Shown here: piece by piece, positions 6,552 through 21,091 of the stretch
Position numbering within the stretch: the first letter of the stretch is position 1
Layout: each line of letters begins with the position of its first letter
DNA from: Planctomycetota bacterium
GTDB taxonomy: Bacteria; Planctomycetota; Planctomycetia; Pirellulales; Pirellulaceae
Reading direction: 5' to 3'
Assembly (NCBI GenBank): GCA_016872725.1
Contig: VGZC01000002.1
Span: 1 to 64,000 of the forward strand
DNA: 64,000 bases
Translations under genes and position numbers: made by a program
Notes under the pieces: generated by a model
The model's database searches: none
What the model saw: the letters and a program-made list of their open reading frames with translations, nothing else
What the model was told of the DNA's origin: nothing

Positions 6552-6851
6552 CTAACCCCCCAAGAGTCCGCCCATTCCCATACCCATCGCGCCCCCGATC
6601 CCACCTCCGAACGCCATGCCGGCGGCCGCGCCGACGTTCTTTCCGGCGGTCACCAGTTCGAGTTCCAGATCGGAGAGGCCCTGGTCACTGGACTGCCAGT
6701 TCTCGGGGATTTCAACCCCGTTCCGACGCGCCGCTTGGACGGCCGCGTCAAGACCACCCGTCGCCAGCGCCTGCTCCAGCTCAAAACGCAGCGCTGCGTC
6801 CACCGTCACGCGATCACTCAAGATCCGAAGGGCATTCTGAACCGACGACAT
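6552..6851 (-). CDS. Nif11/NHLP-like RiPP precursor peptide 1
   Basis: A 99-residue precursor. Residues 1-70 form a helical, acidic leader containing GGLDAAVQAARRNGVEIPENW and ending LSDLELELVTAG. This matches the LSDxELExVxGG end of Nif11-like and nitrile-hydratase-like leader peptides. The remaining 29 residues are almost only Gly, Ala, Met and hydrophobics after an initial Lys-Asn, and end GGLLGG: the predicted core. A Gly-type peptidase would cut after A69-G70. The start has AGGAG seven bases upstream. It aligns without gaps to precursor 2 over the leader. The export cassette at 9852-15738 is the likely secretion route. No Cys, and no Ser or Thr, occurs in the core. Confidence 0.8.
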   Translation of the reverse strand: MSSVQNALRILSDRVTVDAALRFELEQALATGGLDAAVQAARRNGVEIPENWQSSDQGLSDLELELVTAGKNVGAAAGMAFGGGIGGAMGMGMGGLLGG

Positions 6852-7223: not shown

Positions 7224-8054
7224 ATGCTCCGAATCCACCCATCCCGCGCGTTCCCGCCAAATCGACGTCGCGACCGTCGAGGTTTGGCTCGCGGGAGCGG
7301 CTCGAGTCGTTTGGGATGCGTCGCGGCCGTGTGGTTCGCCGCGTGCCTGATCGTCGGCCCTCCGACGGTCCTCGGCCAGCCGCCCGTGACCGACCCGGGG
7401 CCTGTAGGGTGGATCTGGCACCGCGAATCGGTTCGGCAAGCGCCGACCCCGTATGTTCCCCAGGAAGGCGACCTTCTGTTCTTCAGCGCGCGCGCGCCGC
7501 TGCAGACGGCCGGCTATGTGCTGATCGGGAGCGGCCATCCGCTCCACTGCGGCGTGGTCCTGCGGCAATCGGACGGCGAACTGGGCATCCTGGAATCCGG
7601 CGGCGGCGACGACATGCGAGTCATCATCCGCCCCGTCGACTGGCGGCTCTTGCAATACAACCGGGAGTTCAAGGGATCGGTGATTTGGGTCCGCCCCATC
7701 CGGCGCAGGCTGGACGCCGACGAATCATTCCGGCTGACGCAATTCGCTGAGTCTCAGATCGGGAAACCGTTCGTTTCCAACCTGCGATTCGCGCTGTTCG
7801 CCCTGCCCGGCCGTCCCTTGCCTCCGACAAGGACCGATCAATCGAAGTGGTTCTGTTCCGAAATCGTGGCGGCCACGCTGCGCGAGGCGGGCATTCTGGC
7901 ACCGGGTACGCGAACGAGCGCTCTTGTGCCGACCGATTTGTTCGAGGATAAAACGCTGGACCTGAGCGATCAGTGGCAATCGCCGCATGAATGGACGGCG
8001 GGCCCCGAGCTGCCCGAGAAGCGGCCCTGGTTGGCTCCGAAGCGACCGCGTTGA
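7224..8054 (+). CDS. YiiX-like permuted papain-fold (NlpC/P60) enzyme
   Basis: A 276-residue exported protein. A basic N-terminus is followed by a hydrophobic signal segment (about 31-50). The body fits the permuted NlpC/P60 (YiiX/YebB) pattern: EGDLLFF, then HCGVVLR carrying the catalytic His, and much later KWFCSEIVAATLREAG carrying the catalytic Cys. Members cleave or transfer acyl/amide groups on lipids or peptides; the substrate here is unknown. It lies between the two precursor genes and just before the GNAT gene. A role in peptide maturation or immunity is possible but not shown; it could equally be a cell-envelope housekeeping enzyme. Confidence 0.7.
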   Translation: MLRIHPSRAFPPNRRRDRRGLARGSGSSRLGCVAAVWFAACLIVGPPTVLGQPPVTDPGPVGWIWHRESVRQAPTPYVPQEGDLLFFSARAPLQTAGYVLIGSGHPLHCGVVLRQSDGELGILESGGGDDMRVIIRPVDWRLLQYNREFKGSVIWVRPIRRRLDADESFRLTQFAESQIGKPFVSNLRFALFALPGRPLPPTRTDQSKWFCSEIVAATLREAGILAPGTRTSALVPTDLFEDKTLDLSDQWQSPHEWTAGPELPEKRPWLAPKRPR

Positions 8055-8091: not shown

Positions 8092-9015
8092 ATGAACGAC
8101 GGCGACCTCCACGTGCGACGCCTCGCGTCGGCCGCCGACGCGCTCCCCTTCGCGCCGCTCACCTTCCCCACATTCCACCGCACGCTGTTCGCGTTGGGAC
8201 ACGAGTCGGGCCCGGTCATGCTCGGCGCGTCGCGACGCGGCGAACCGGTGGGGCTCGCCCTCGCGATCGTGAAGTCGGATACGGCTCAACTGCTGTCGTT
8301 GGCCGTCGCGACGCATGCCCGAGGAACGGGCATTGGCGGGAAACTGATGGTCGAGTTGGAGTCGATCCTGCGCGGCGAGGGCGTCGCGCGCATGGAGCTC
8401 AACTTCACCGATCCCAACGCCACATCGGAGGCGTGGCGCCGGCTGTTGCGTCGCGCGGGCTGGAGTGAACCGACGCCCCGCATGCGGTTGTTTACGCTTG
8501 GACGAGGCTCGCTCGAAACGGTCGCCCGGGCTCGGTGGATGAGCCGCCAAGAGCCGCCGGTCGATTGCGCGCTATTTCCGTGGACGGATCTGACATCGGC
8601 GGAGGAAGGTGAACTTCGGGCCGAGGTCGGACCCGATTCCTGGTTTCCGCCCGTGCTCTCCCCGTTCGCGATGGCCGATCCGATCGACGCGCGTCTCAGC
8701 GTGGGATTGCGCTATCAGGGGCGCGTCGCCGGTTGGTTGATCGCGCACCGGATTGCCGAGGGCACCGTGCGCTACACGAGCCTCTTCGTACGTCAAGTGT
8801 CCGGACTGCGCGGCGCGGGACTCGTACTGCTCGCCGAGAGCATACGCCGGCAACTGTCCGATCCGGGCCGCGATGTGGCGGCGACGTTCGGCATCGAGAT
8901 CCAGAATCCTCTTCTGGCGTTCGCCGAACGGCGTCTGATTCCGCACGTCGAGGTCGTGGCGCTGCGGACGTCGTTCACGAGCGGGAAGTGGATCGAGCCC
9001 GGACATGCGTCATGA
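8092..9015 (+). CDS. Tandem-domain GNAT acyltransferase
   Basis: A 307-residue protein with two GNAT-like halves. The first (about 6-140) carries the acyl-CoA pyrophosphate-binding loop as HARGTGIGG (75-83), followed by the alpha-helix KLMVELESIL. The second half (about 150-305) keeps the fold pattern (RYTSLFVRQVSGLRGAG) but lacks a clean RxxGxG loop and may serve substrate binding. The ATG at 8092 is 37 bases after the previous stop. It sits between two RiPP precursor genes and upstream of their export cassette. GNAT enzymes are known to N-acylate lysine or ornithine side chains in some RiPPs of this leader class, so a maturation role is plausible, but this is inference. Confidence 0.75.
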   Translation: MNDGDLHVRRLASAADALPFAPLTFPTFHRTLFALGHESGPVMLGASRRGEPVGLALAIVKSDTAQLLSLAVATHARGTGIGGKLMVELESILRGEGVARMELNFTDPNATSEAWRRLLRRAGWSEPTPRMRLFTLGRGSLETVARARWMSRQEPPVDCALFPWTDLTSAEEGELRAEVGPDSWFPPVLSPFAMADPIDARLSVGLRYQGRVAGWLIAHRIAEGTVRYTSLFVRQVSGLRGAGLVLLAESIRRQLSDPGRDVAATFGIEIQNPLLAFAERRLIPHVEVVALRTSFTSGKWIEPGHAS

Positions 9016-9164
9016 CGGCGTGACGGCGCGACGCCCCCGCATCACCCAGTGCACGGTGCCTCGTCAAGAAACGAACACGCCGCCGAACCAAGGCGGCCCG
9101 GCGGCGCGTCGCTGTTTGCCATTCCCTCGGGAGAAGCGCCCGGCGCCCCGTAACGGATGGACGG

Positions 9165-9437
9165 CTAACCTCCCAAGAGTCCGCCGATTCCCGTGCCGAT
9201 CGCGCCTGCGAGCCCGTAGAACGCCTTGCCGGCCGTCACCAGTTCGAGCTCGGTGTCGGACAATTCGTTCGAATGCGATCTCCAATCGTTGGGGACTTCG
9301 ATTCCGTTTCGGCGAGCGACTTCGACCGCCGCGTCGATACCGCCGCTCGACAGCGCGGATTCGATCTCACAGCGGAAACCGGGTTCCACATCCATCCGAG
9401 CGCGAACCGAACACAGACAATCTTGAACCGTTGCCAT
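9165..9437 (-). CDS. Nif11/NHLP-like RiPP precursor peptide 2
   Basis: A 90-residue paralogue of precursor 1. The leader is again exactly 70 residues, with GGIDAAVEVARRNGIEVPNDW and the end LSDTELELVTAG. The predicted core is 20 residues, beginning Lys-Ala-Phe-Tyr, rich in Gly and hydrophobics, and ending GGLLGG. GAGGAG precedes the ATG at 9437 by nine bases. A minus-strand promoter (9622-9650) lies upstream. Leader similarity with divergent cores is the usual sign of ribosomal peptide natural-product precursors. Leader Cys residues at 7, 9 and 23 are not shared with precursor 1. Confidence 0.82.
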   Translation of the reverse strand: MATVQDCLCSVRARMDVEPGFRCEIESALSSGGIDAAVEVARRNGIEVPNDWRSHSNELSDTELELVTAGKAFYGLAGAIGTGIGGLLGG

Positions 9438-9621
9438 GCGATGCAACTCCTCGACTAGGCACGCCCTCCCTCGCGACGCGCGGCGGTCGCCGAGATCGGG
9501 CGTCGAAAACCGGTTACGATCCACTTCGCAGGTCCCGATGCCGCAACGACGCAACGTCTCCGCCGAACTCGGGCGCCTCCACCACCTCGAACCCGATCCG
9601 GGCGCGCGGTAGTCGTACGCC

Positions 9622-9650
9622 AGTATAGGCCGATTCTGTCGGCGACGCAA
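9622..9650 (-). promoter_or_regulatory. Promoter for precursor 2
   Basis: On the minus strand TTGCGT (9650-9645) and TATACT (9627-9622) are separated by exactly 17 bases. Transcription would start near 9615, giving a leader of about 180 bases before the precursor 2 ATG at 9437. Confidence 0.5.
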
Positions 9651-9700
9651 ATTGCGACGGCGACAGGCGCGAACCGGCGTGGGGCCGGACGGCCCGTTCG

Positions 9701-9729
9701 TTGATCGGCAAGGACCCCAAAGCTAGACT
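9701..9729 (+). promoter_or_regulatory. Promoter for the HlyD-ABC-ABC export operon
   Basis: TTGATC (9701-9706) and TAGACT (9724-9729) are 17 bases apart on the plus strand. Transcription would start near 9736, about 115 bases before the HlyD-type ATG. It is back to back with the precursor 2 promoter, so the 50 bp between the two -35 boxes may hold shared control sites. Confidence 0.5.
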
Positions 9730-9851
9730 TGACCGCCCGCCGCGCGACGAGGACCGCCGCGGCGGCGCGCGGCCATGCACGCGCGCGAACGGCCCGGCTT
9801 CGACCGTGGGTGCGGATCCTCTTGGAGAATGCGGCTCGAGCCGAGCGTTCC

Positions 9852-11354
9852 ATGAGTACCAATCGTAGCGACCGCGCTATGTTTCGCAGGACGGCCCTGA
9901 TGGACGTCGCGGGCGCGGCGCGCGAGGACGCGCCGCTCGCGTTGATGGCCGGCCGCGCCTGGATCGCGCTCGGAGCCCTTCTCCTTCTGTGCGGCACCGC
10001 CGTTGTCTGGTCGCTGATTGGAGCCGTTCCCGTCACGGTCCGGGGCTCCGCCCTATTGTCGCATCCCGGTTCGATCGTCGCGATCGAATCGGCGACGGCC
10101 GGCCCGGTCACGTCGGTCCATGCGCGGCCGGGTGACACGGTCGCGTCAGGCGACCTGCTCGCGCGCGTCGATCAACCGGCTCTCCGCGAGGAACGAAACC
10201 AGGCCCGGATTGTGCTCGACGAATTGCGATCCGCCGACGCGAACCACGCGAAACTCGAAGACGAACAGCTCGACGGCGAAACGCGTTGGCGCGATAGTCA
10301 AACGGCCCTGCTGCTTTCGAGCTCGACGGAGATGGAACGGCTCGCGGACGACTCCGCGGCGCGGAGCGCCGACTGGGCGGCGCGGCAACGTGAACGATTC
10401 GGCCGCATCGAGGAAATGACGAACCGGCTCGTCGCCTCGCTCGATGCGCGTCTTGACGAACTGCGGCGGCTCGCCGATCGCGGGTTGGCGACGCGCGAGC
10501 AGATCGTCGCGGCCGAGTCCGCCGCGATCGACGCGGACCGTTCCCGTTCCGCGTACGAATCGCAAGCCTCGGATACGGCGATCCAGGAACAGGAATCCCG
10601 GCAATTCGTATTCGACCGAAGGAACCGGGCCGCCGAATTGCGTCTGGAATCAAGCCAGGTGGAACTGCGTTGGAAGAAACTCCAACAGGAGATCGTTCTC
10701 GCGCGGAATGAACGCTCGCGGCAAATCGAACTGCGGCGGGAACGCGTCGCGTCGCTCGACCGGAGGCTCGCCGAATCGTCCGAGATCCGCGCCGCGCACT
10801 CGGGACGCGTGCTCGAATGGCATGTGGAAGTCGGCCGAACAGTCGGGCCGGGCATGGCGCTTGGCTCGCTGGCCCGCGACCGCGGCCCGGCGGCCGAGTC
10901 GGAACGCCTTCGCGCGCTTGCCTATTTCCCATTGAGCGATGGAAAGCGGATCGCGCCGGGAATGGACGTGCTCGTGACGCCGAGCACGGAGAAGCGCGAA
11001 CGGTACGGCGGCATTCGAGGAACGGTATGGAAGGTCGCCGAGTTCCCGACGACGCGGGCCGCCGCGTCCGCCGCGCTGGGCAGCGACGACGTCGTCCAGG
11101 GGCTCGCCGCGCCCGGCGGCATGCTCGAAGTGGAAATCGCATTGCGGACGGCCTCCACCCAAAGCGGCTACGACTGGACGACGAGCGGGCCTCCCGCGCC
11201 GCCAACCGCCGGTACGATGGCGTCGGCCCGCGTGGTGGTCGAACGCCGGACTCCGTTGTCGTTCCTGGTGCCGCATGTCCGCGCGTGGTTGCTCGGTCCC
11301 GATCCCGACGCGGCGCGCGACGAAAACGCCCGTTCGAGCGGAACCTCTTACTGA
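9852..11354 (+). CDS. NHLM-type HlyD membrane fusion protein
   Basis: A 500-residue periplasmic adaptor. It opens with MFRRTALMDVAG and one membrane segment (about 45-65, ending WSLIGAVPVTVRG), the pattern of NHLM bacteriocin secretion proteins. A lipoyl-like half-motif (AGPVTSVHARPGDTVASGDLLARV), a long coiled-coil hairpin (about 115-325) and the second lipoyl half (AHSGRVLEWHVEVGRTV) follow, then a C-terminal beta domain. It should link the inner-membrane ABC transporters to an outer-membrane channel. The downstream transporter starts 15 bp later. The frame stays open upstream, but the ATG at 9852 best fits the family N-terminus. Confidence 0.88.
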   Translation: MSTNRSDRAMFRRTALMDVAGAAREDAPLALMAGRAWIALGALLLLCGTAVVWSLIGAVPVTVRGSALLSHPGSIVAIESATAGPVTSVHARPGDTVASGDLLARVDQPALREERNQARIVLDELRSADANHAKLEDEQLDGETRWRDSQTALLLSSSTEMERLADDSAARSADWAARQRERFGRIEEMTNRLVASLDARLDELRRLADRGLATREQIVAAESAAIDADRSRSAYESQASDTAIQEQESRQFVFDRRNRAAELRLESSQVELRWKKLQQEIVLARNERSRQIELRRERVASLDRRLAESSEIRAAHSGRVLEWHVEVGRTVGPGMALGSLARDRGPAAESERLRALAYFPLSDGKRIAPGMDVLVTPSTEKRERYGGIRGTVWKVAEFPTTRAAASAALGSDDVVQGLAAPGGMLEVEIALRTASTQSGYDWTTSGPPAPPTAGTMASARVVVERRTPLSFLVPHVRAWLLGPDPDAARDENARSSGTSY

Positions 11355-11369
11355 AGGCGGACGAACGCG

Positions 11370-13577
11370 ATGCGGACCCGTCGGAACGTCCGAACGCCGA
11401 CCCTCCTGCAGCTCGACGCCGCCGAATGCGGCGCCGCGTGCCTCGGGATCGTCCTCGCGCATTACGGGCGCCATGTACCACTCGCCGAACTGCGCCGCGA
11501 CTGCGGCGTATCGCGGGACGGAAGCCGCGCGAGCAATGTCGTGCGCGCCGCTCGCTTGCACGGGCTCGACGCGCGCGGCATGAAACGCGATGTGGACGAA
11601 CTGCGGGGCGTCCACAAACCGCTCATCGCGCACTGGCAATTCAATCATTTCGTCGTCGTCGAATCGATCGGGGGGCGCCATGTTCGATTGAATGACCCGC
11701 GATTCGGCCATGTGCGGGTGTCGCGGGACGAGTTCGATCGGTCGTTTACCGGCGTGGCGCTCGAATTCGCGCCGAACGCCGCATTCGAACGCCGCGGGAA
11801 GCCGGTCCGCCTGCTCCGATCGCTCGCCCCGCGCATCTGGACGCATCGACGATCGCTCGCCTTCGGCACACTCGCCGGATGGCTGCTCGTCATCCCCTCG
11901 CTCGTCCTTTCGGGGTGCGCGGGCGCGTTCATCGACGGCGTCTTGATCGAAGGCCAACGAAGCTGGATGCGGCCCCTGGTCTGGATTCTGCTCGCGGCGG
12001 CGGCCGTCCAATGGGTCGTTCTCGGCCTGCAGCGCCGCGGCCTTCGGCTCGCCTATCGCTCGGCGATCCGAACCGAAACGGCCGAACTCGTCGATCGTCT
12101 GCTCCGGTTGCCGCTCGCCTTTTTCACGCAGCGGCAATCCGGCGAGATCGCCAACCGGATCCAGTACGCGGAACATGTCGGCGAGTTGTTGACGCACCGG
12201 GTCGCCGACTCGGGGATCGAGTTCGGTTCGATGGTGGCCTACTTCGCGGCCATGTCATGGATCGCGCCGCCGCTCGCGGCCGCCACCGGCGTTCTGGCCG
12301 CGTTCAACGCCCTCGCGCTGCTCGTCGCGTTCCGGAAACGCACCGAGGTCAGTCAGCGCATCGCGCGCGCGGAGGGCCGCTGGGTCGGCGCGTCGCTGAT
12401 CGGTGTTCAGATGATCGAACCGATGAAGGCGGGCGGCATGGAGTCGGGCTATGTCGCCAAGTGGAGCGGCTACCAGCGGGAATCCGCCGGCGCGAGGCAG
12501 GAGCTCGAACGGTCCGTCATCGGATTGGAAACGCTGCCCGGATTGACCGAACGGCTCGCCCTCACGACGCTGCTGTGCCTTGGCGGCTATTTCGTCATGC
12601 GGGGTTCGATGACGGTCGGATCGCTCGTCGCCTTCCAGATCCTCCTCGCGCGGTTCTCGGCTCCCCTCCAGTCGCTCGTCGCGCTCGCCGCGGAGTGGCA
12701 GACAGCGCACGCCGACTTCCTGCGCCTCGACGATGTCCGGAACAGCGCGACGGACCCGCTTTCCGAGGACGATCGACGGGAATCGCGGTCCGACGCGGCG
12801 GCATCAACGGCCGCATCCGCCGACTCGTTCGGCTCGCCCGGGCACGCGGTCGCGCTGTCCGACGTGACGTTCGGCTACGGGCCCCTCGATCCACCCCTTC
12901 TCGACGGCATCCAACTTGCCCTTCGACCGGGCGAGTGCCTTGCGGTCGTGGGGGGCAGCGGTTCGGGCAAATCGACCCTCGCGCGGCTCGTGTGCGGGCT
13001 GCACGCGCCATGGAAAGGCAAGATCCTCCACGACGGACGGGCGCTGTCCGACATGGCGAGGTCCGAGCGCGTCCGGCGCATCGCGTACGTCGATCAGGAC
13101 GTGATGCTGTTCGCCGGTTCGATCCGCGACAATCTCTCGCTTTGGAACGGCGGGTTTTCGGACGAGGCTCTCTGGGAGGCGTGCGACGACGCGTGCATCG
13201 GCGACGTCGTGCGCGGCGTTCCCGGCCAACTCGATGCGCCGCTCCGCGAGAACGGCGCCAATCTCAGCGGAGGCGAACGGCAGCGGATCGAGCTCGCCCG
13301 CGCGTTCGCGTGCCGACCGTCGCTGCTGGTGCTGGATGAAGCCATGAGCGCGCTCGACGGGCCCACCGAGGCGCGCGTGATCGAGTCGATCCGGCGCCGC
13401 GGCTGCACGACGATCCTGATCACGCACCGCATCGAAGCCGCGCAAACATGCGACGCGATCCTCGTACTGGAGCAAGGCCGCATCCGAGGCCTGGGCACGC
13501 ACGACCGGTTGCGGGCGGCGTGCGCCGAGTACGGGCGGCTTCTCGGAACCGCGTCTCCCTCCCCTCGCACGGACTGA
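11370..13577 (+). CDS. NHLM-type ABC transporter with C39 leader peptidase
   Basis: A 735-residue transporter-peptidase. Residues 1-135 are a C39 peptidase with Q14, C20 (LDAAECGAAC), H93 (WQFNHF) and D109 (LNDP), which cuts leaders after a double-glycine-type site. A six-helix membrane domain spans about 150-450. The ATPase carries GGSGSGKST, LSGGERQR and LLVLDEAMSALD. It resembles the peptidase/ATP-binding transporter of NHLM bacteriocin systems. All key residues are present, so it should be able to cleave the two VTAG-ending leaders encoded at 6.5 and 9.2 kb and export the cores. The next transporter starts seven bases downstream. Confidence 0.92.
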   Translation: MRTRRNVRTPTLLQLDAAECGAACLGIVLAHYGRHVPLAELRRDCGVSRDGSRASNVVRAARLHGLDARGMKRDVDELRGVHKPLIAHWQFNHFVVVESIGGRHVRLNDPRFGHVRVSRDEFDRSFTGVALEFAPNAAFERRGKPVRLLRSLAPRIWTHRRSLAFGTLAGWLLVIPSLVLSGCAGAFIDGVLIEGQRSWMRPLVWILLAAAAVQWVVLGLQRRGLRLAYRSAIRTETAELVDRLLRLPLAFFTQRQSGEIANRIQYAEHVGELLTHRVADSGIEFGSMVAYFAAMSWIAPPLAAATGVLAAFNALALLVAFRKRTEVSQRIARAEGRWVGASLIGVQMIEPMKAGGMESGYVAKWSGYQRESAGARQELERSVIGLETLPGLTERLALTTLLCLGGYFVMRGSMTVGSLVAFQILLARFSAPLQSLVALAAEWQTAHADFLRLDDVRNSATDPLSEDDRRESRSDAAASTAASADSFGSPGHAVALSDVTFGYGPLDPPLLDGIQLALRPGECLAVVGGSGSGKSTLARLVCGLHAPWKGKILHDGRALSDMARSERVRRIAYVDQDVMLFAGSIRDNLSLWNGGFSDEALWEACDDACIGDVVRGVPGQLDAPLRENGANLSGGERQRIELARAFACRPSLLVLDEAMSALDGPTEARVIESIRRRGCTTILITHRIEAAQTCDAILVLEQGRIRGLGTHDRLRAACAEYGRLLGTASPSPRTD

Positions 13578-13584
13578 CCGTTTT

Positions 13585-15738
13585 ATGTCATCCCATTCCG
13601 AACCGACGCCCGAGATGCCCGCGAGTTTGCGGGCGCGAGCCGCGCCGACGGAAGGCGATGCGCCCGCGGCGCGCGATTGGAACCGGGTCACGAACGACGA
13701 TCTCGCGGGCGCCCTCGCGGGGCTTTCCAGGCCACTCGGCGTTCCGGTCCGGCGCCCCCGCGCGGCGCCCGGCCCGGTCGACGTCGATCCGGTCTCGCTC
13801 GCCGAATCGATCGGCCTGATCGCGCGGCGCGTCGAGCTACCCGATCGCTGGTGGCGAGCGGACCGCGGACCACTCGTCGTGCTCGCGGGCGACTCCGATC
13901 CGCCGCGGCCCGTTGCCTTGATTCGGAGGGGCGGGCGGTACCGGATCGTCGGTCCCGACGGTCGCCCGTCGCGCGCGATCCGCGGGCGCGAGGCGCGGAG
14001 CGTACGGGCGAGCGCGCTGAGCCTCGCGGCGCCGCTTCCCGAATCGCCGGTCACCCTCGTTCGGGCCGCACGGTTCGCGATTCGGCCTTGGCGGGCCGAC
14101 ACCGCGCGGCTCGCCCTGTTCCTCGCCATCTTCGGCGCGCTCGGATTGTCGGTTCCGATCGCCAATCGGCGGATCATCGATCAGGCGATACCCGACGCCG
14201 ACTGGGCGCTTGTCGTTCAAATCGCCGGATTGCTGGTCGCCGTGAATCTCGCGCAGGCCGCGTGCCATCTCGTCGCGCGGCGCCACCACGTTCGAGTCAT
14301 CACGGGCGCGATCGTCCGGTTGCAACTGGCCACGTGGCACCGATTGATCCAGTTGCCCGGCGGTTTTTTCCGCGATCAAAGCGGCGGGGATCTCGTCCAT
14401 CGGGGTCTCGCGGTCACCGCGATGGGCCAGCAGCTCGGCTCCGTCGTCATCCACTCGGCGGTCGCCGCCGCGATCGGATTCGGCGCGGCCGCCATGCTCG
14501 TCTGGATCCAGCCCATGCTCGCTCTCGTGGCGTTCGCATTCGGCGCGCTCGAGGCGGGAATCACCGCGCTCGTTTCATGGCGCGTGCATGGCGCGACGAT
14601 GCGGCTGGAGCGATTGCGGGCCGAGCTGCTTGGCACGCTCGTTCCGATTGTGCAAGGCATCGCCAAACTGCGGGTCGCGGGCGCGGAGTCCCGCGCCGCG
14701 TCGCAGTGGTGGCCGACCTTCGAACGGCACTTGGCCCTGCTCGACAATCGCCAGTGGTGGCTCGACCAGCTTCGCATCGCGGCGTCGACGGTTCCCGCGG
14801 TGGCGAGCGTCGCGATCTACAGCGCGGTCCACCGACGGTCGAACGCCGGACCCGATCCGGCCATGTCGCTCGGAGGTCTGATGGCGTTCTTGACCACGTA
14901 TGGACTCTTCGCGCACGGCCTGGCGTCAATCGGCAAATTGGCGACGACCGCGACCCAGGCCCTTTCGCTCGAACGGCTCGTCCGACCCATCTGGCATGGC
15001 GAACCGGAAGTCACGGCCGGCAGCGCGGCGCCGGGTCGATTGCGGGGCCGAGTCCGACTCCACGACGTTGCGTTCCGATATCACGACGAGGGGCCGCGGG
15101 TACTTGAGAACGTGTCATTCGAGATCGCGCCGGGCGAGTTTGTGGCCATCACCGGCCCGTCCGGCGGCGGCAAGTCGTCACTGATCCGCCTCCTGCTCGG
15201 CCTCGCGCGGCCCGTCGAGGGGATCGTCTCGTACGACGGCCATGACTTGTCGCGGCTTGACGCGCGGGCCGTGCGCCGCCAGATCGGAAGCGTGCTGCAA
15301 CAGTCGGCCGTGTTCGCCGGCACGCTTTTCGACAACATCGCGGGAGGCCGCGCGATCACGATGGATGAGGCATGGGCGGCCTGCGTTGAAGCGGAACTCG
15401 CCGACGATATCGCGGCGTTCCCCATGGGGATGTACACGCTGGTGGCCGATCGCGGAGCCAACCTATCGGGCGGGCAGCGCCAGCGCCTGCTCATCGCCAG
15501 GGCCTTGGTCGGAGCTCCCGCCGTCGTCGTGTTTGACGAGGCGACCAGCGCGCTCAGCCCCGATGCGCAGCAACGCATCATGGACCGGCTCGCGCGCCGC
15601 AACGTGACGCGAGTCGTCGTCGCCCATCGTATGGACGCCGTCCGCGACGCCGACCGAATGCTCGTCGTGGACCATGGCCGAGTCGTCGAATCGAAGGAGC
15701 ACCCAGCACCCTTTGGCCGAAGGCCAAATTCACCGTAG
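13585..15738 (+). CDS. NHLM-type second ABC transporter, tail replaced by REP
   Basis: A 717-residue ABC protein with no peptidase. Residues 1-150 form the variable N-terminal region seen in the second NHLM transporter (DRWWRADRGPLVVL, SPVTLVRAARFAIRPW). A membrane domain (about 165-445) and an ATPase with GPSGGGKSS, LSGGQRQR and VVVFDEATSAL follow. After DHGRVVESKEH the last codons are read from a REP palindrome (APFGRRPNSP), so roughly the last 20 residues expected for the family are missing. The ATPase core is complete, so function may survive. Likely partner of the C39 transporter. Confidence 0.9.
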   Translation: MSSHSEPTPEMPASLRARAAPTEGDAPAARDWNRVTNDDLAGALAGLSRPLGVPVRRPRAAPGPVDVDPVSLAESIGLIARRVELPDRWWRADRGPLVVLAGDSDPPRPVALIRRGGRYRIVGPDGRPSRAIRGREARSVRASALSLAAPLPESPVTLVRAARFAIRPWRADTARLALFLAIFGALGLSVPIANRRIIDQAIPDADWALVVQIAGLLVAVNLAQAACHLVARRHHVRVITGAIVRLQLATWHRLIQLPGGFFRDQSGGDLVHRGLAVTAMGQQLGSVVIHSAVAAAIGFGAAAMLVWIQPMLALVAFAFGALEAGITALVSWRVHGATMRLERLRAELLGTLVPIVQGIAKLRVAGAESRAASQWWPTFERHLALLDNRQWWLDQLRIAASTVPAVASVAIYSAVHRRSNAGPDPAMSLGGLMAFLTTYGLFAHGLASIGKLATTATQALSLERLVRPIWHGEPEVTAGSAAPGRLRGRVRLHDVAFRYHDEGPRVLENVSFEIAPGEFVAITGPSGGGKSSLIRLLLGLARPVEGIVSYDGHDLSRLDARAVRRQIGSVLQQSAVFAGTLFDNIAGGRAITMDEAWAACVEAELADDIAAFPMGMYTLVADRGANLSGGQRQRLLIARALVGAPAVVVFDEATSALSPDAQQRIMDRLARRNVTRVVVAHRMDAVRDADRMLVVDHGRVVESKEHPAPFGRRPNSP

Positions 15739-15868: not shown

Positions 15869-16321
15869 ATGCCACAGTCCCTGACGAAACTCTATGCCCA
15901 TTTGGTTTTCAGCACGAAGTACCGCGAACCATTTCTGGATGAGAGAATTCGGTCTCGTGTCCATGGCTATCTCGCGACCGTGATCCGCGACTTGGATTCA
16001 CCCTGGGTCGTCGTCGGTGGCGTGGTCGATCACGTTCCTATCTTGTTTGACATGGGCAAAATGGTGGCACCCGTCAAGTTCGTTGAGCAAGTGAAACGCG
16101 AGTCGTCCAAGTTCGTCAAGACGCTTGGCACCCCGTACACGAAGTTCTACTGGCAACGTGGTTACGGGATGTTTTCGGTTGGCCCCATGGATCGCGACCA
16201 AGCAGAACATTATGTTCGCAATCAGGAGGAGCACCATCGACGAACGACCTTTCAGGACGAATATCGGTCGATGCTGACGCGCTACGGCATTGAGTTCGAC
16301 GAACAGTACGTCTGGGATTAG
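15869..16321 (+). mobile_element. REP-associated (IS200-like) Y1 transposase, altered HUH
   Basis: A 150-residue Y1/HUH transposase of the IS200/RAYT type. It shows LYAHLVFSTKYRE at the start, YWQRGYGMFSV in the middle, the catalytic Tyr candidate Y115 in HYVRNQEEHH, and the ending YGIEFDEQYVWD. The metal-binding HUH motif, normally DHVHILF, reads DHVPILF: H55 is kept but the second His is P57, a change explicable by one base (CAT/CAC to CCT/CCC). Catalysis is therefore doubtful. REP-like hairpins flank it in opposite orientations. It interrupts the 3-prime end of the peptide-export operon. Confidence 0.9.
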
Positions 16322-17193: not shown

Positions 17194-18615
17194 TCAATTC
17201 GTCGGCGTATCCTCGCTCGCGGGTGGGCTCAGCGGCGTTACCGTCGGTTCGGTCGGCCCGGACGGTATCGTTTCGCCCGGCTCGGCGCCGGGCGGTGCGA
17301 TCGGTTCCGCGGCAATTGGCTCCATTTCAACGCTCTTGGGACCAAACCGCATTTCGATCGGCGTGGTGTCGAGCACGATGGCGGGCGCGTTGATTTCGTT
17401 ATAGAGGACGATGCCGGCGCTGATCAAACCGGTTCCCTTTCGCCATTCGTATTCCGCGATCGCGATCTGATGTTCGTCCCGCGCGATGCGGTGTTCATAC
17501 GTTGCCTGGTGGACCTTCTTGTTCGCCTCGATCACCTGATCGTCGTCGGCCCATCGTTCGGACTTCGCATCGATCACAGCCTGAAGCGCGCGGCTCGCCG
17601 TATCGAGCGACCGCTCGGTGATCCGCACGACGTCGAGGGTCGTGTTCACTCGGCGGCGAACCTCATACAACTCGATCCGCGCGCGTTCCTCACCGCGGCG
17701 CACGGCATCGACGGTCTCGATGACGTTCGGTTCGGGAGCCGCCGTCCGCCGCGCGGCGTTTTCCAATAGCGTTCGCCAAGCTCCGGTTCGCTCGATCATC
17801 GGCCGTTCGAATACAAGGCCGGGTGTCCGATCGGCCAGCAGGTCGGGTTTGGAGCGGCACGCGGTCGCGAGGTCCGACTCCCACGATTCCGGGCCCAATT
17901 GGAGTTCGTGCGAGGGATCGGCGGGGCGGAGCGTGTGCGTGCTGTCGGGTGGCCAAGCGCACGCGGCGCGTAGGACGAGGTTCGCCTGCAGGAGGCCGGG
18001 CGTATTGGCCGACCCGACTCGAGCGAGCGCCACGCGCTGGTTCCACGACTCCCATTCAGCCTCTTTCGCCGCGACATCCGGATCGGTCGCCGCGCCGACA
18101 GCTCGCCGCGCGCGCGTGTTATCGAGTTGTCTCTTGGCGGAATCCCGCATCGCTTCGGACCACGCCACGGCCGCACGCGCCTTGTCGAGGGACCAGTAGG
18201 CGGTCTCGACTTCACGGGCTCGATCGGCGATTTGATCCTGGTAGCGCCAGTGTTTTTCCGTCGGCAGTCCGGCGGGGAGAACGACGAGACATCCGATCCA
18301 CGGACGATACTCGGGCCCCGCGCAGCGCGCGGCCAGTTCCGGCGACATACCGAACGTCAATCGCGCATTGCCCTCGGGAAACTGCAGATCGGCCAGTGCG
18401 TGGATGAGACAATCGACTCGAGAAACGGAAACCTCGTCGCCCTCAACGACCAGCTCGCCGCGCTGTTCGACGTCGGACCAGGGCCGCTTGAGATGGGCGG
18501 CGGGCTTCCGCCACGCGGGATCGACCGTCGTCGATTCGGGGCCATGGAACGAGGCGCACCCCGCGAGGAGGGTCCAGACGATCCAGCAAACGGCTCGGAT
18601 CCGTCGGCGGCGCAC
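17194..18615 (-). CDS. TolC-like outer-membrane lipoprotein
   Basis: A 473-residue protein from a GTG at 18615, preceded by GGAGAAAGG at eight bases. The first 20 residues end in the lipobox LLAGC. Two repeats of the TolC-type helical pattern are visible: REVETAYWSLDKARAAV...RRAVGAATDPDVAAKEAEW, then VNTTLDVVRITERSLDTASRALQAV...QATYEHRIARDEHQIAIAEYEW. The tail is Pro/Glu-rich. It probably forms an outer-membrane export channel and could complete the HlyD-ABC machine 2 kb away, although it lies on the opposite strand across the REP locus. Sequence match is moderate. Confidence 0.7.
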   Translation of the reverse strand: MRRRRIRAVCWIVWTLLAGCASFHGPESTTVDPAWRKPAAHLKRPWSDVEQRGELVVEGDEVSVSRVDCLIHALADLQFPEGNARLTFGMSPELAARCAGPEYRPWIGCLVVLPAGLPTEKHWRYQDQIADRAREVETAYWSLDKARAAVAWSEAMRDSAKRQLDNTRARRAVGAATDPDVAAKEAEWESWNQRVALARVGSANTPGLLQANLVLRAACAWPPDSTHTLRPADPSHELQLGPESWESDLATACRSKPDLLADRTPGLVFERPMIERTGAWRTLLENAARRTAAPEPNVIETVDAVRRGEERARIELYEVRRRVNTTLDVVRITERSLDTASRALQAVIDAKSERWADDDQVIEANKKVHQATYEHRIARDEHQIAIAEYEWRKGTGLISAGIVLYNEINAPAIVLDTTPIEMRFGPKSVEMEPIAAEPIAPPGAEPGETIPSGPTEPTVTPLSPPASEDTPTN

Positions 18616-18957
18616 GCGGATGGCCTTTCTCCGCGATTGGCAAAGCGCGCGGCGGCGAGCGGCCGGCGCGGCGGCGGGCCGCGGATACCCGGAAAAGGCC
18701 GTCGGAGGAACGGGCCCTGTCCACACCATCGACGCCGGGCGGGGAGACCTTGAGAAGAAATAGGGATTCCGTCGAGTTTTCCGATCGAAACGGGTGGATC
18801 GGCCATGCCGAGTCCGACGGGGGCCGATGTCCGCCCGTTTGCCGCGCGGCGCGGCACGAGCTACGTTTCAGTTGGCCGACGGATCGCGTCGCGCGGGACA
18901 CCCATGTTGGAACACACGAGAATCCGAGGTGCCCCGCTCGTTCCAGGAGTCCCCACC

Positions 18958-19183: not shown

Positions 19184-21091
19184 TCAGATAGGGACGCCGT
19201 CCCAGCGCACGAACGCCTCCATCGCGAAATACTCGGGCAGGCCGATCTGATTGAACCGATCGGCCGTCGCCTTGTTGCGGTCCTCGGCTCGCTGCCAGAA
19301 CTCGCGGGGATCGTTACCGGGAAAGAGGGCTTCGTCTTTCTGGCTTTCGTGCATGAAGATCGCCTCGCGTTTCAGCAGGATATCGCTCGGGCTGAGCGGA
19401 ACGGCGATTTCAAGTTCGTGAAGTTCGTATTCCTGCCATGCGCCCCGATAGAGGAGGACCTCGGGCGTCGGACCGGATTGCGCGCGGAGTTGTTCGAGCG
19501 CGCCGAAGACGGCCTCGGCGCACATGCGGTGCGTTCCGTGCGGATCGGAGAGATCGCCGGCGACATACACCTGGTGGGGTGACACGCGGCGAATCAAATC
19601 GGCGATGATCTCGATATCGGCCTGGCTGACCGGCCGCTTGGCGACGGTGCCCGTCCGGTAGAACGGCAGATTGAGGAAATGCAGGTGGTCCTCGCGGCAG
19701 CCGACCGTGATCGCCGCGGCTTTCGCCTCGCTCCAACGGATCAGGCCTTTGATTCGCAGAACGGCATCGACATCCGGCTGGCCGGGAGACTTGCGCGACA
19801 TCCAGGCGTCGACCTCCTCGCACACTTTCCGCGACTTGTCCTGATCGATGCCGAAGAGCCGATTGTATTCGGTGACCAGATCGGCGACGCGCCGCGCATC
19901 GTGATCGAAGACGGCGATGTTGCCGCTGGTCATGTAGGCGACGTGGACCTCGTGGCCGTCCTCGACGAGTCGGATCAATGTCCCGCCCATGCTGATCACG
20001 TCGTCATCGGGGTGCGGGCTGCAGCAAACGACGCGTTTCCGGTTCCTTCCCGCCGGATGGTACTCGATGGTGTTCATCATCAAGCGGAAGACGCGGTGGG
20101 CCAGTTTCTGCGCGGGTCCGCGATGGCGGAGCAGTTGGTGCAGATTGTGATTGCGGAAGTCGTCGTCGTCGAGTTTGAGCAGGGCTTTGCCGGTCTGTTC
20201 GCAGAGCCAGAGGACGGCCCGTTTGACGAGCGGTTCGGTCCACTCGACGTTTTCGAGGATCCACGGCGTGGCCCATCCGGTCAGTTCGCGCGCGGAGGCG
20301 GCGTCGAGCAGAACGGCCGCGTCGCCGTGTTCCTGGAGGTAGGAGGCGGGGACCCGCGGCGTGATCGGCCCTTCACACGTTTGACGGACGATCGACGCCT
20401 TGTGTTCGCCGAGCGCCATCAAGACGATCTTGCGCGATTCGAGGATGGTCGCGAGCCCCATCGTGATCGCTTGGGCGGGCACGTTCTCCTCGGAAAAAAA
20501 CGAACTCGCCGCCGCGCGGCGCGTGACGGGATCGAGCGTGCAGAGCCGCGTGCGAGCGCGCCGGTTGCTGAACGGCTCGTTGAATCCGATATGCCCGTTG
20601 CCGCCGATCCCGAGCAACATGACGTCGATTCCGCCCGCCTGCTGCAATTGCACCTCGTATTCGCGGCAATAGGCTTCGAGCCGATCGATGGGCACCGTTC
20701 CGTCGGGAATATGGATGTTCCCGGTCGGAATGTTGACGTGTCGAAAGAAGTGCTCGCGCATCCACCCCGCATAGCTCTGCAGCGATTCCGGGGAGAGGCC
20801 GTAGTATTCGTCGAGGTTGAACGTGATCACGCGCGAGAAATCGAGTCCCTCCTCGCCGTGCATGCGGATCAGCTCGCGGTAGACGCCGACGGGCGTCGAG
20901 CCGGTGGGAAGGCCGAGCACGGCGTGCTGGCCGAGCGCGTTCCGGTCGCGGACGACCTGCGCGACGATTTGCGCGACGTGCCGCGCCAGGTCCTTGCCGT
21001 TTTCGAAAACCCAAGTCGGCAACGTCGTACCGCGGACCGAGTGAGGCCCAGCCGGCGTTTTCCCGTTCATTCCCATCATCCCAGCGTCCAT
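19184..21091 (-). CDS. nagB: Glucosamine-6-phosphate deaminase fused to PIG-L domain
   Basis: A 635-residue fusion. Residues ~30-290 are a NagB-type deaminase/isomerase converting glucosamine-6-phosphate to fructose-6-phosphate plus ammonia: GLPTGSTPVGVY, TFNLDEYYGL, LLGIGGNGHIGFNEP. The C-terminal ~280 residues resemble PIG-L/LmbE deacetylases, with the zinc motif SPHPDDD and a later DPHGTH. In this class the second domain may remove N-acetyl groups before deamination; that is inference. The fusion is larger than normal NagB (about 260 residues). In-frame ATGs a few codons in (for example MNGK) are alternative starts. Confidence 0.9.
   Translation of the reverse strand: MDAGMMGMNGKTPAGPHSVRGTTLPTWVFENGKDLARHVAQIVAQVVRDRNALGQHAVLGLPTGSTPVGVYRELIRMHGEEGLDFSRVITFNLDEYYGLSPESLQSYAGWMREHFFRHVNIPTGNIHIPDGTVPIDRLEAYCREYEVQLQQAGGIDVMLLGIGGNGHIGFNEPFSNRRARTRLCTLDPVTRRAAASSFFSEENVPAQAITMGLATILESRKIVLMALGEHKASIVRQTCEGPITPRVPASYLQEHGDAAVLLDAASARELTGWATPWILENVEWTEPLVKRAVLWLCEQTGKALLKLDDDDFRNHNLHQLLRHRGPAQKLAHRVFRLMMNTIEYHPAGRNRKRVVCCSPHPDDDVISMGGTLIRLVEDGHEVHVAYMTSGNIAVFDHDARRVADLVTEYNRLFGIDQDKSRKVCEEVDAWMSRKSPGQPDVDAVLRIKGLIRWSEAKAAAITVGCREDHLHFLNLPFYRTGTVAKRPVSQADIEIIADLIRRVSPHQVYVAGDLSDPHGTHRMCAEAVFGALEQLRAQSGPTPEVLLYRGAWQEYELHELEIAVPLSPSDILLKREAIFMHESQKDEALFPGNDPREFWQRAEDRNKATADRFNQIGLPEYFAMEAFVRWDGVPI

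Follow-up and report, generated by a model that had tools for sequence, protein, structure and literature searches.

A tandem GNAT between two glycine-rich precursors with putative Nif11-type leaders as a probable selidamide-type lysine N-acyltransferase in a Planctomycetota bacterium

The closest described system is that of Nostoc punctiforme, in which the tandem GNAT NpuN transfers a C16 (hexadecenoyl-type) acyl group onto Lys1 of the Nif11-leader precursor NpuA, and neither Lys3 nor Lys24 of NpuA substitutes for Lys1 as the acceptor (PMC13060382). NpuN has a clear P-loop in its N-terminal domain and used acetyl-, C12, C14 and C18:1 CoA as donors in vitro, and acylation did not change the activity of nostolysamide; some gene clusters of the NpuN cluster had already been noted to be without lanthionine synthetases (PMC13060382). 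In the selidamides phaeornamide and kamptornamide, the GNATs acylate (hydroxy)ornithine (PMC9505594). The original prediction for the DNA analyzed here stated that GNATs fatty-acylate Lys or Orn in RiPPs of this leader class, which is borne out by NpuN (PMC13060382) and by the phaeornamide and kamptornamide GNATs (PMC9505594).

The window, a stretch of 64,000 nucleotides from a Planctomycetota bacterium, contains a tandem GNAT gene flanked by two precursor genes, both on the opposite strand. Judging from the sequence features described below, we consider it likely that this GNAT is a selidamide-type (NpuN-like) N-acyltransferase for Lys1 of two glycine-zipper peptides, with no lanthionine chemistry, and the locus probably makes fatty-acylated, glycine-rich peptides. 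The features, with the evidence for each, are as follows.

6552-6851, minus strand: precursor peptide 1, 99 aa, with a putative Nif11-type leader ending ELELVTAG and the Gly-rich core KNVGAAAGMAFGGGIGGAMGMGMGGLLGG (ORF, ribosome site AGGAG, similarity to precursor 2)
6639-6641, minus strand: Lys71 codon of precursor 1, first core residue and sole Lys, the proposed acylation site (direct reading; Lys count)
7224-8054, plus strand: possible permuted papain-like (YaeF/YiiX-type) hydrolase (PRK11479, E 0.044 in NCBIfam, very weak; HCG and FCSEIV motifs by direct reading)
8092-9015, plus strand: tandem GNAT, proposed peptide Lys N-acyltransferase (Pfam, NpuN-like profile, fold, neighborhood conservation)
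8320-8337, plus strand: acyl-CoA P-loop RGTGIG (R/QxxGxG) of the N-terminal GNAT domain, residues 77-82 (conservation among 14 homologs)
9165-9437, minus strand: precursor peptide 2, 90 aa, core KAFYGLAGAIGTGIGGLLGG (ORF, ribosome site GAGGAG, paralog of precursor 1)
9225-9227, minus strand: Lys71 codon of precursor 2, first core residue and sole Lys (direct reading; Lys count)
9852-11354, plus strand: NHLM HlyD-type secretion protein (TIGR03794, 252.7 bits, above the cut-off of 156.2)
11370-13577, plus strand: NHLM ABC transporter with an N-terminal C39 leader peptidase (TIGR03796, 798.6 bits, cut-off 853.3; Peptidase_C39, E 2e-33)
13585-15738, plus strand: NHLM ABC transporter, second subunit (TIGR03797, 596.3 bits, cut-off 709.4)
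17194-18729, minus strand: TolC-like outer membrane protein, possible exporter partner (OEP, E 4e-7)

The GNAT open reading frame (8092-9015, plus strand) encodes 307 aa. Pfam assigned the N-terminal domain to Acetyltransf_1 (residues 34-113, E = 2e-11), and the C-terminal domain fell below threshold by sequence (PanZ, residues 222-255, E = 0.01). An AF2 model built with 10 sequences (pLDDT 74.8) matched tandem GNATs along the whole chain (5kga: Z 17.8, 269 residues; 2wpw: Z 17.5, 278 residues), with a Foldseek E value of 1e-13 against 2wpw. Judged by this model, the window GNAT is of tandem-domain architecture, and the two-domain GNAT of the earlier annotation is confirmed by Pfam for the N-terminal domain and by the whole-chain fold match. 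Among 14 homologs, the P-loop residues R77, G80 and G82 were conserved at 90% or more, and G214 and W215 of the C-terminal domain were two of the few positions with no or almost no variation, suggesting that the C-terminal domain is likely functional. No paralog of the GNAT was found in its own genome.

We compared the window GNAT with a profile of 19 Nostocaceae GNATs (the NpuN-like profile), including those of loci L096 and L102. NpuN orthologs in this profile were recognized via the NpuA core pattern/synteny: the L096 and L102 GNATs adjoin 25-aa cores matching NpuA at K1, S4, C5, T9, T12, C14, S18, C20, S23 and C25, and they were taken as NpuN orthologs because the adjoining cores match these published positions. 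Against this profile, the window GNAT scored 208.9 bits (residues 15-300), more than any other of the 12 non-cyanobacterial RiPP-linked GNATs tested; generic GNATs with a single domain from the same phylum did not exceed 38 bits, and these matches covered one domain only. Identity to NpuN-type proteins was about 31-35%. The NCBIfam RimI model gave 27.8 bits against a cut-off of 86.4, likewise over one domain only, and the window GNAT lay far under the cut-off of every other NCBIfam equivalog. A general acetyltransferase reading of the GNAT was rejected on these scores, and the grouping with general acetyltransferases that the original prediction had named as a point against itself was not observed. 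In a tree, the window GNAT was placed with alphaproteobacterial Nif11/NHLP-linked GNATs and the homolog of L067 with moderate support (89/80 and 85/84); its own placement (89/80) is not strongly supported.

No full-length GNAT match was found in 39 relatives from the same family and order. Across 392 genomes of the phylum, full-length matches (E < 1e-17) were present in four others, and a profile search revealed two more genomes with a GNAT homolog, one of which (L068) was much more distant. These queries used the GNAT sequence alone and were blind to gene context; NHLM-type RiPP transporters lay beside the full-length homolog in all 6 of the 6 other genomes. The contents of the loci were as follows.

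L016: NHLM-type ABC transporters
L017: NHLP precursors, HlyD and two ABC genes
L016:2051-4954, plus strand: a GNAT-ligase-carrier fusion
L018: several Nif11 precursors
L018:5202-8315 and 9028-13497, minus strand: GNAT-ligase-carrier fusions, two genes
L019: LanM (TIGR03897, 590.7 bits), NHLP precursors and two ABC genes
L067 (same class as the window genome): HlyD, two ABC genes and five NHLP precursors
L068: HlyD and two ABC genes, then a RiPP radical SAM C-methyltransferase (TIGR03975, 498.8 bits)

Such leaders are rare in the phylum (Nif11 in 10/265 genomes, NHLP in 8/265). A GNAT not conserved beside such precursors in relatives, the other outcome named in advance as adverse, was not what the six neighborhoods showed. 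In L019 (G110:C62:16000-35999), related NHLP precursors whose leaders are duplicated lie in an array, accompanied by one LanM and one GNAT; immediately behind a precursor, a small part of the GNAT gene occurs a second time (L019:11249-11368).

GNAT homologs also adjoin Nif11/NHLP precursors in Shinella, Mesorhizobium and Azospirillum, and the Shinella homolog gene overlaps a Nif11 gene. The closest complete homologs in Nostoc (33%, E = 3e-48), found with a cyanobacteria-weighted alignment, lie between a precursor ending ...ETVSGG/KGSS... and a C39-ABC gene, and 42 of 217 genomes of the Nostoc family carry GNAT homologs. Not every member of the GNAT family is linked to RiPPs: cyanobacterial TIGR03032-GNAT fusions adjoin cadherin-/Ig-like giant proteins, not RiPP precursors; in these TIGR03032 proteins (L071:8717-10828 and L073:6858-8852), a GNAT of the window GNAT's family forms the C-terminus. 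On a Microcoleus plasmid (L072:7778-8684), a GNAT of the same family is apparently split by a frameshift and adjoins a C39-ABC gene.

The L016 and L018 homologs are long proteins in which the tandem GNAT comes first, followed by an AMP-binding ligase (its C-terminal domain of DIP2/FAAL type) and a carrier-protein domain, and one of the two L018 fusion genes is extended by a partial condensation domain. Because of these fusions, fatty acyl rather than acetyl transfer is supported for the GNAT family. The fusion is possibly an undescribed lipid-loading RiPP enzyme; a 2025 FAAL review makes no mention of GNATs, and the nostolysamide paper (PMC13060382) makes no mention of FAALs. The window GNAT itself has no fused ligase or carrier and would take its acyl groups from primary metabolism, like NpuN in E. 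coli. The same fusions, together with the C10-C16 chains delivered by characterized RiPP GNATs of the NpuN kind, make it unlikely that the window GNAT acylates its peptide with a short chain (acetyl) for masking or self-protection instead of lipidation, although acetyl-CoA is also used by NpuN in vitro (PMC13060382), the nearest solved tandem GNATs are acetyltransferases, and self-resistance GNATs exist.

The two precursors are 54% identical. They share 51 of 90 aligned residues, with different codons at 19 of the shared residues, and their nucleotide differences by codon position (29/17/47) fall mostly at third positions. The Shine-Dalgarno sites and this synonymous divergence indicate that both are real genes, and the genome contains no others of the kind. 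The Nif11 model TIGR03798 was marginal, giving 14.1 bits for precursor 2 against a cut-off of 32.3 and no match for precursor 1, while the junction LSD.ELELV..G, the size of the precursors and the NHLM exporter are consistent with an NHLP/Nif11 leader. The predicted cut site, taken from the leader family, lies between AG and K and reads AG, not GG. K71 directly follows ELELVTAG as core residue 1 and is the sole Lys of each whole precursor, so that the earlier statement that both cores start with Lys right after VTAG holds, given this presumed cut; neighboring proteins (correctly framed) contain 0.6-2.8% Lys. The cores are 29 residues (precursor 1) and 20 residues (precursor 2) long. Core 1 has a GRAVY of 0.80 and 13 Gly among its 29 residues, and both cores show repeated GxxxG and contain no Cys, Ser, Arg, Asp or Glu and a single Thr in all (core 2). 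By this composition, Lys71 is the only acylatable core amine besides the N-terminal amine freed by cleavage.

Lys as the first core residue was found in at least one core in 8 of 19 GNAT-linked loci compared to 0 of 9 unlinked loci of the phylum (Fisher p = 0.03), a comparison confounded by taxon, since linked and unlinked loci come from differing taxa. The enrichment rests on small numbers, because a larger background of unlinked Nif11 cores sought in plasmids yielded no matches. In L067, 4 of 5 cores begin with Lys, and four further GNAT-linked Nostocaceae cores have Lys at +3. More than half of the GNAT-linked loci elsewhere have no Lys at +1, suggesting that the GNAT family follows no single acceptor rule.

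The Nif11 precursors near the L018 fusions have cores without Lys. Such cores beside AMP-ligase-fused homologs (TPMCCNCHEGGPS, IPTDCGQSGTHC) imply that acceptors in the wider GNAT family are not always a core Lys, and lipolanthines and goadvionins are acylated at the N-terminus (PMC13060382), which would agree with acylation of the core alpha-amine after leader removal, or of a residue elsewhere, rather than of the Lys71 side chain. We regard this as quite unlikely for the window GNAT: in each paralog the only Lys is core residue 1, NpuN modifies Lys1 of a co-expressed precursor, and the leader is presumably removed together with export, which would put the peptide out of reach of a cytosolic GNAT. 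Strongly disfavored, and in our judgment very unlikely, is that a general acetyltransferase lies here by chance beside unmodified class II-type bacteriocins, for although the GNAT is on the strand opposite the precursors and the core composition resembles that which we take to be typical of unmodified glycine-zipper bacteriocins, the NpuN-like profile separates it from generic GNATs, RimI is far under cut-off, all six phylum homologs are RiPP-linked, and the GNAT is absent from the 39 relatives.

The GNAT had been described as the only obvious tailoring enzyme among the precursor genes; its position between the precursors was confirmed, but it is not the sole intervening gene. The papain-like gene (7224-8054) ends 37 bases upstream of the GNAT gene, and its product could be a peptidase, lipid hydrolase or immunity factor; an AF2 model made without homologs reached pLDDT 34, and no homologs were found in plasmids. 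Downstream of the GNAT, the HlyD, C39-ABC and second ABC genes form an operon that, as read from their sequences, supplies every component of an NHLM exporter. The two ABC genes match TIGR03796 and TIGR03797 best, with scores 6% and 16% under the equivalog cut-offs, and the catalytic C, H and D of the C39 domain are visible. An IS200-type transposase gene (15869-16321, plus strand; PF01797, E 1e-19) separates the exporter from the TolC-like gene, and an ORF at 19184-21091 (minus strand) fuses glucosamine-6-phosphate isomerase and PIG-L de-N-acetylase domains.

We identified no lanthionine synthetase in the genes examined between 5,500 and 21,100. A class II lanthipeptide reading was rejected, with cores lacking Cys and Ser and holding one Thr, and no LanM-type synthetase identified in that interval; an azole RiPP reading was rejected as well, the acceptor residues being absent and no synthetase identified.

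In the preferred reading, the GNAT as a selidamide-type N-acyltransferase, either precursor would be delivered to the tandem GNAT by its Nif11-type leader; with acyl-CoA or acyl-ACP from primary metabolism as donor, the enzyme would then fatty-acylate the Lys71 side-chain amine before export. Here the acylation site is predicted from sequence and the acyl identity from relatives. The C39 domain, a member of its family by sequence match, would then cut after ELELVTAG, and the HlyD/ABC/ABC system, perhaps with TolC, would export the peptide. The exported peptide would be a hydrophobic glycine zipper, lipidated at residue 1 and probably active on membranes. Apart from Lys acylation there may be no side-chain modification, because no lanthionine synthetase was identified and the cores are without Cys and Ser. 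The acylated, Gly-rich lipopeptide originally proposed is thus supported by the NpuN-like profile, the six RiPP-linked neighborhoods and the sole Lys at core +1, and its chemistry we infer.

More tentatively, as a possibility that we would not yet expect to hold, the locus may encode a ribosomal lipopeptide of minimal form, a glycine zipper without rings in which a stand-alone tandem GNAT adds one fatty acyl to the single Lys and no other side chain is modified. Members of this GNAT lineage in other genomes of the phylum have a loading module of their own (FAAL-like ligase plus carrier protein) and would then be a ribosomal counterpart of fatty-acid-started nonribosomal lipopeptides. The system would extend side-chain-lipidated RiPPs beyond the characterized cyanobacterial and proteobacterial lanthipeptides to another bacterial lineage. 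Since each precursor has a single Lys and ring formation would not compete, the locus would be the simplest test system and would allow the role of the lipid, which the nostolysamide work could not settle, to be asked directly, and the relatives with GNAT-FAAL-like ligase-carrier fusions could reveal how chain length is set.

By fold, the window GNAT shares the whole chain with C. acetobutylicum glucosamine NAT (5kga), ORF14 (2wpw), MshD and VipF (Z 14-18), but these are only 12-18% identical, acetylate small molecules or protein, and are not known to be RiPP-linked. Lipolanthines and goadvionins are likewise GNAT-lipidated RiPPs, but they are N-terminally acylated class III lanthipeptides, hybrid with polyketide-type chains (PMC13060382; PMC9505594), and no such genes were seen here. 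The selidamides phaeornamide and kamptornamide share with the window a GNAT that fatty-acylates a side-chain amine (as proposed here), a RiPP with an NHLP/Nif11 leader (putative for the window) and a dedicated peptidase-transporter; in phaeornamide, the acceptor is made by an arginase and a hydroxylase and a lanthionine ring is present, whereas the window acceptor would be an encoded Lys. The NpuN/nostolysamide system and the window have in common a tandem GNAT with an N-domain P-loop, Lys at core position 1, a C39 ABC exporter and, putatively for the window, a Nif11-type precursor. The npu locus has a LanM and a Cys/Ser/Thr-rich core, whereas no LanM was identified among the genes examined around the window precursors and the window cores are glycine zippers; the window further differs in its two precursors and NHLM two-ABC export. 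Since NpuN-cluster gene clusters without lanthionine synthetases have already been noted (PMC13060382), the window locus is no new category, and its system is best filed as an apparently lanthionine-free member of the selidamide kind.
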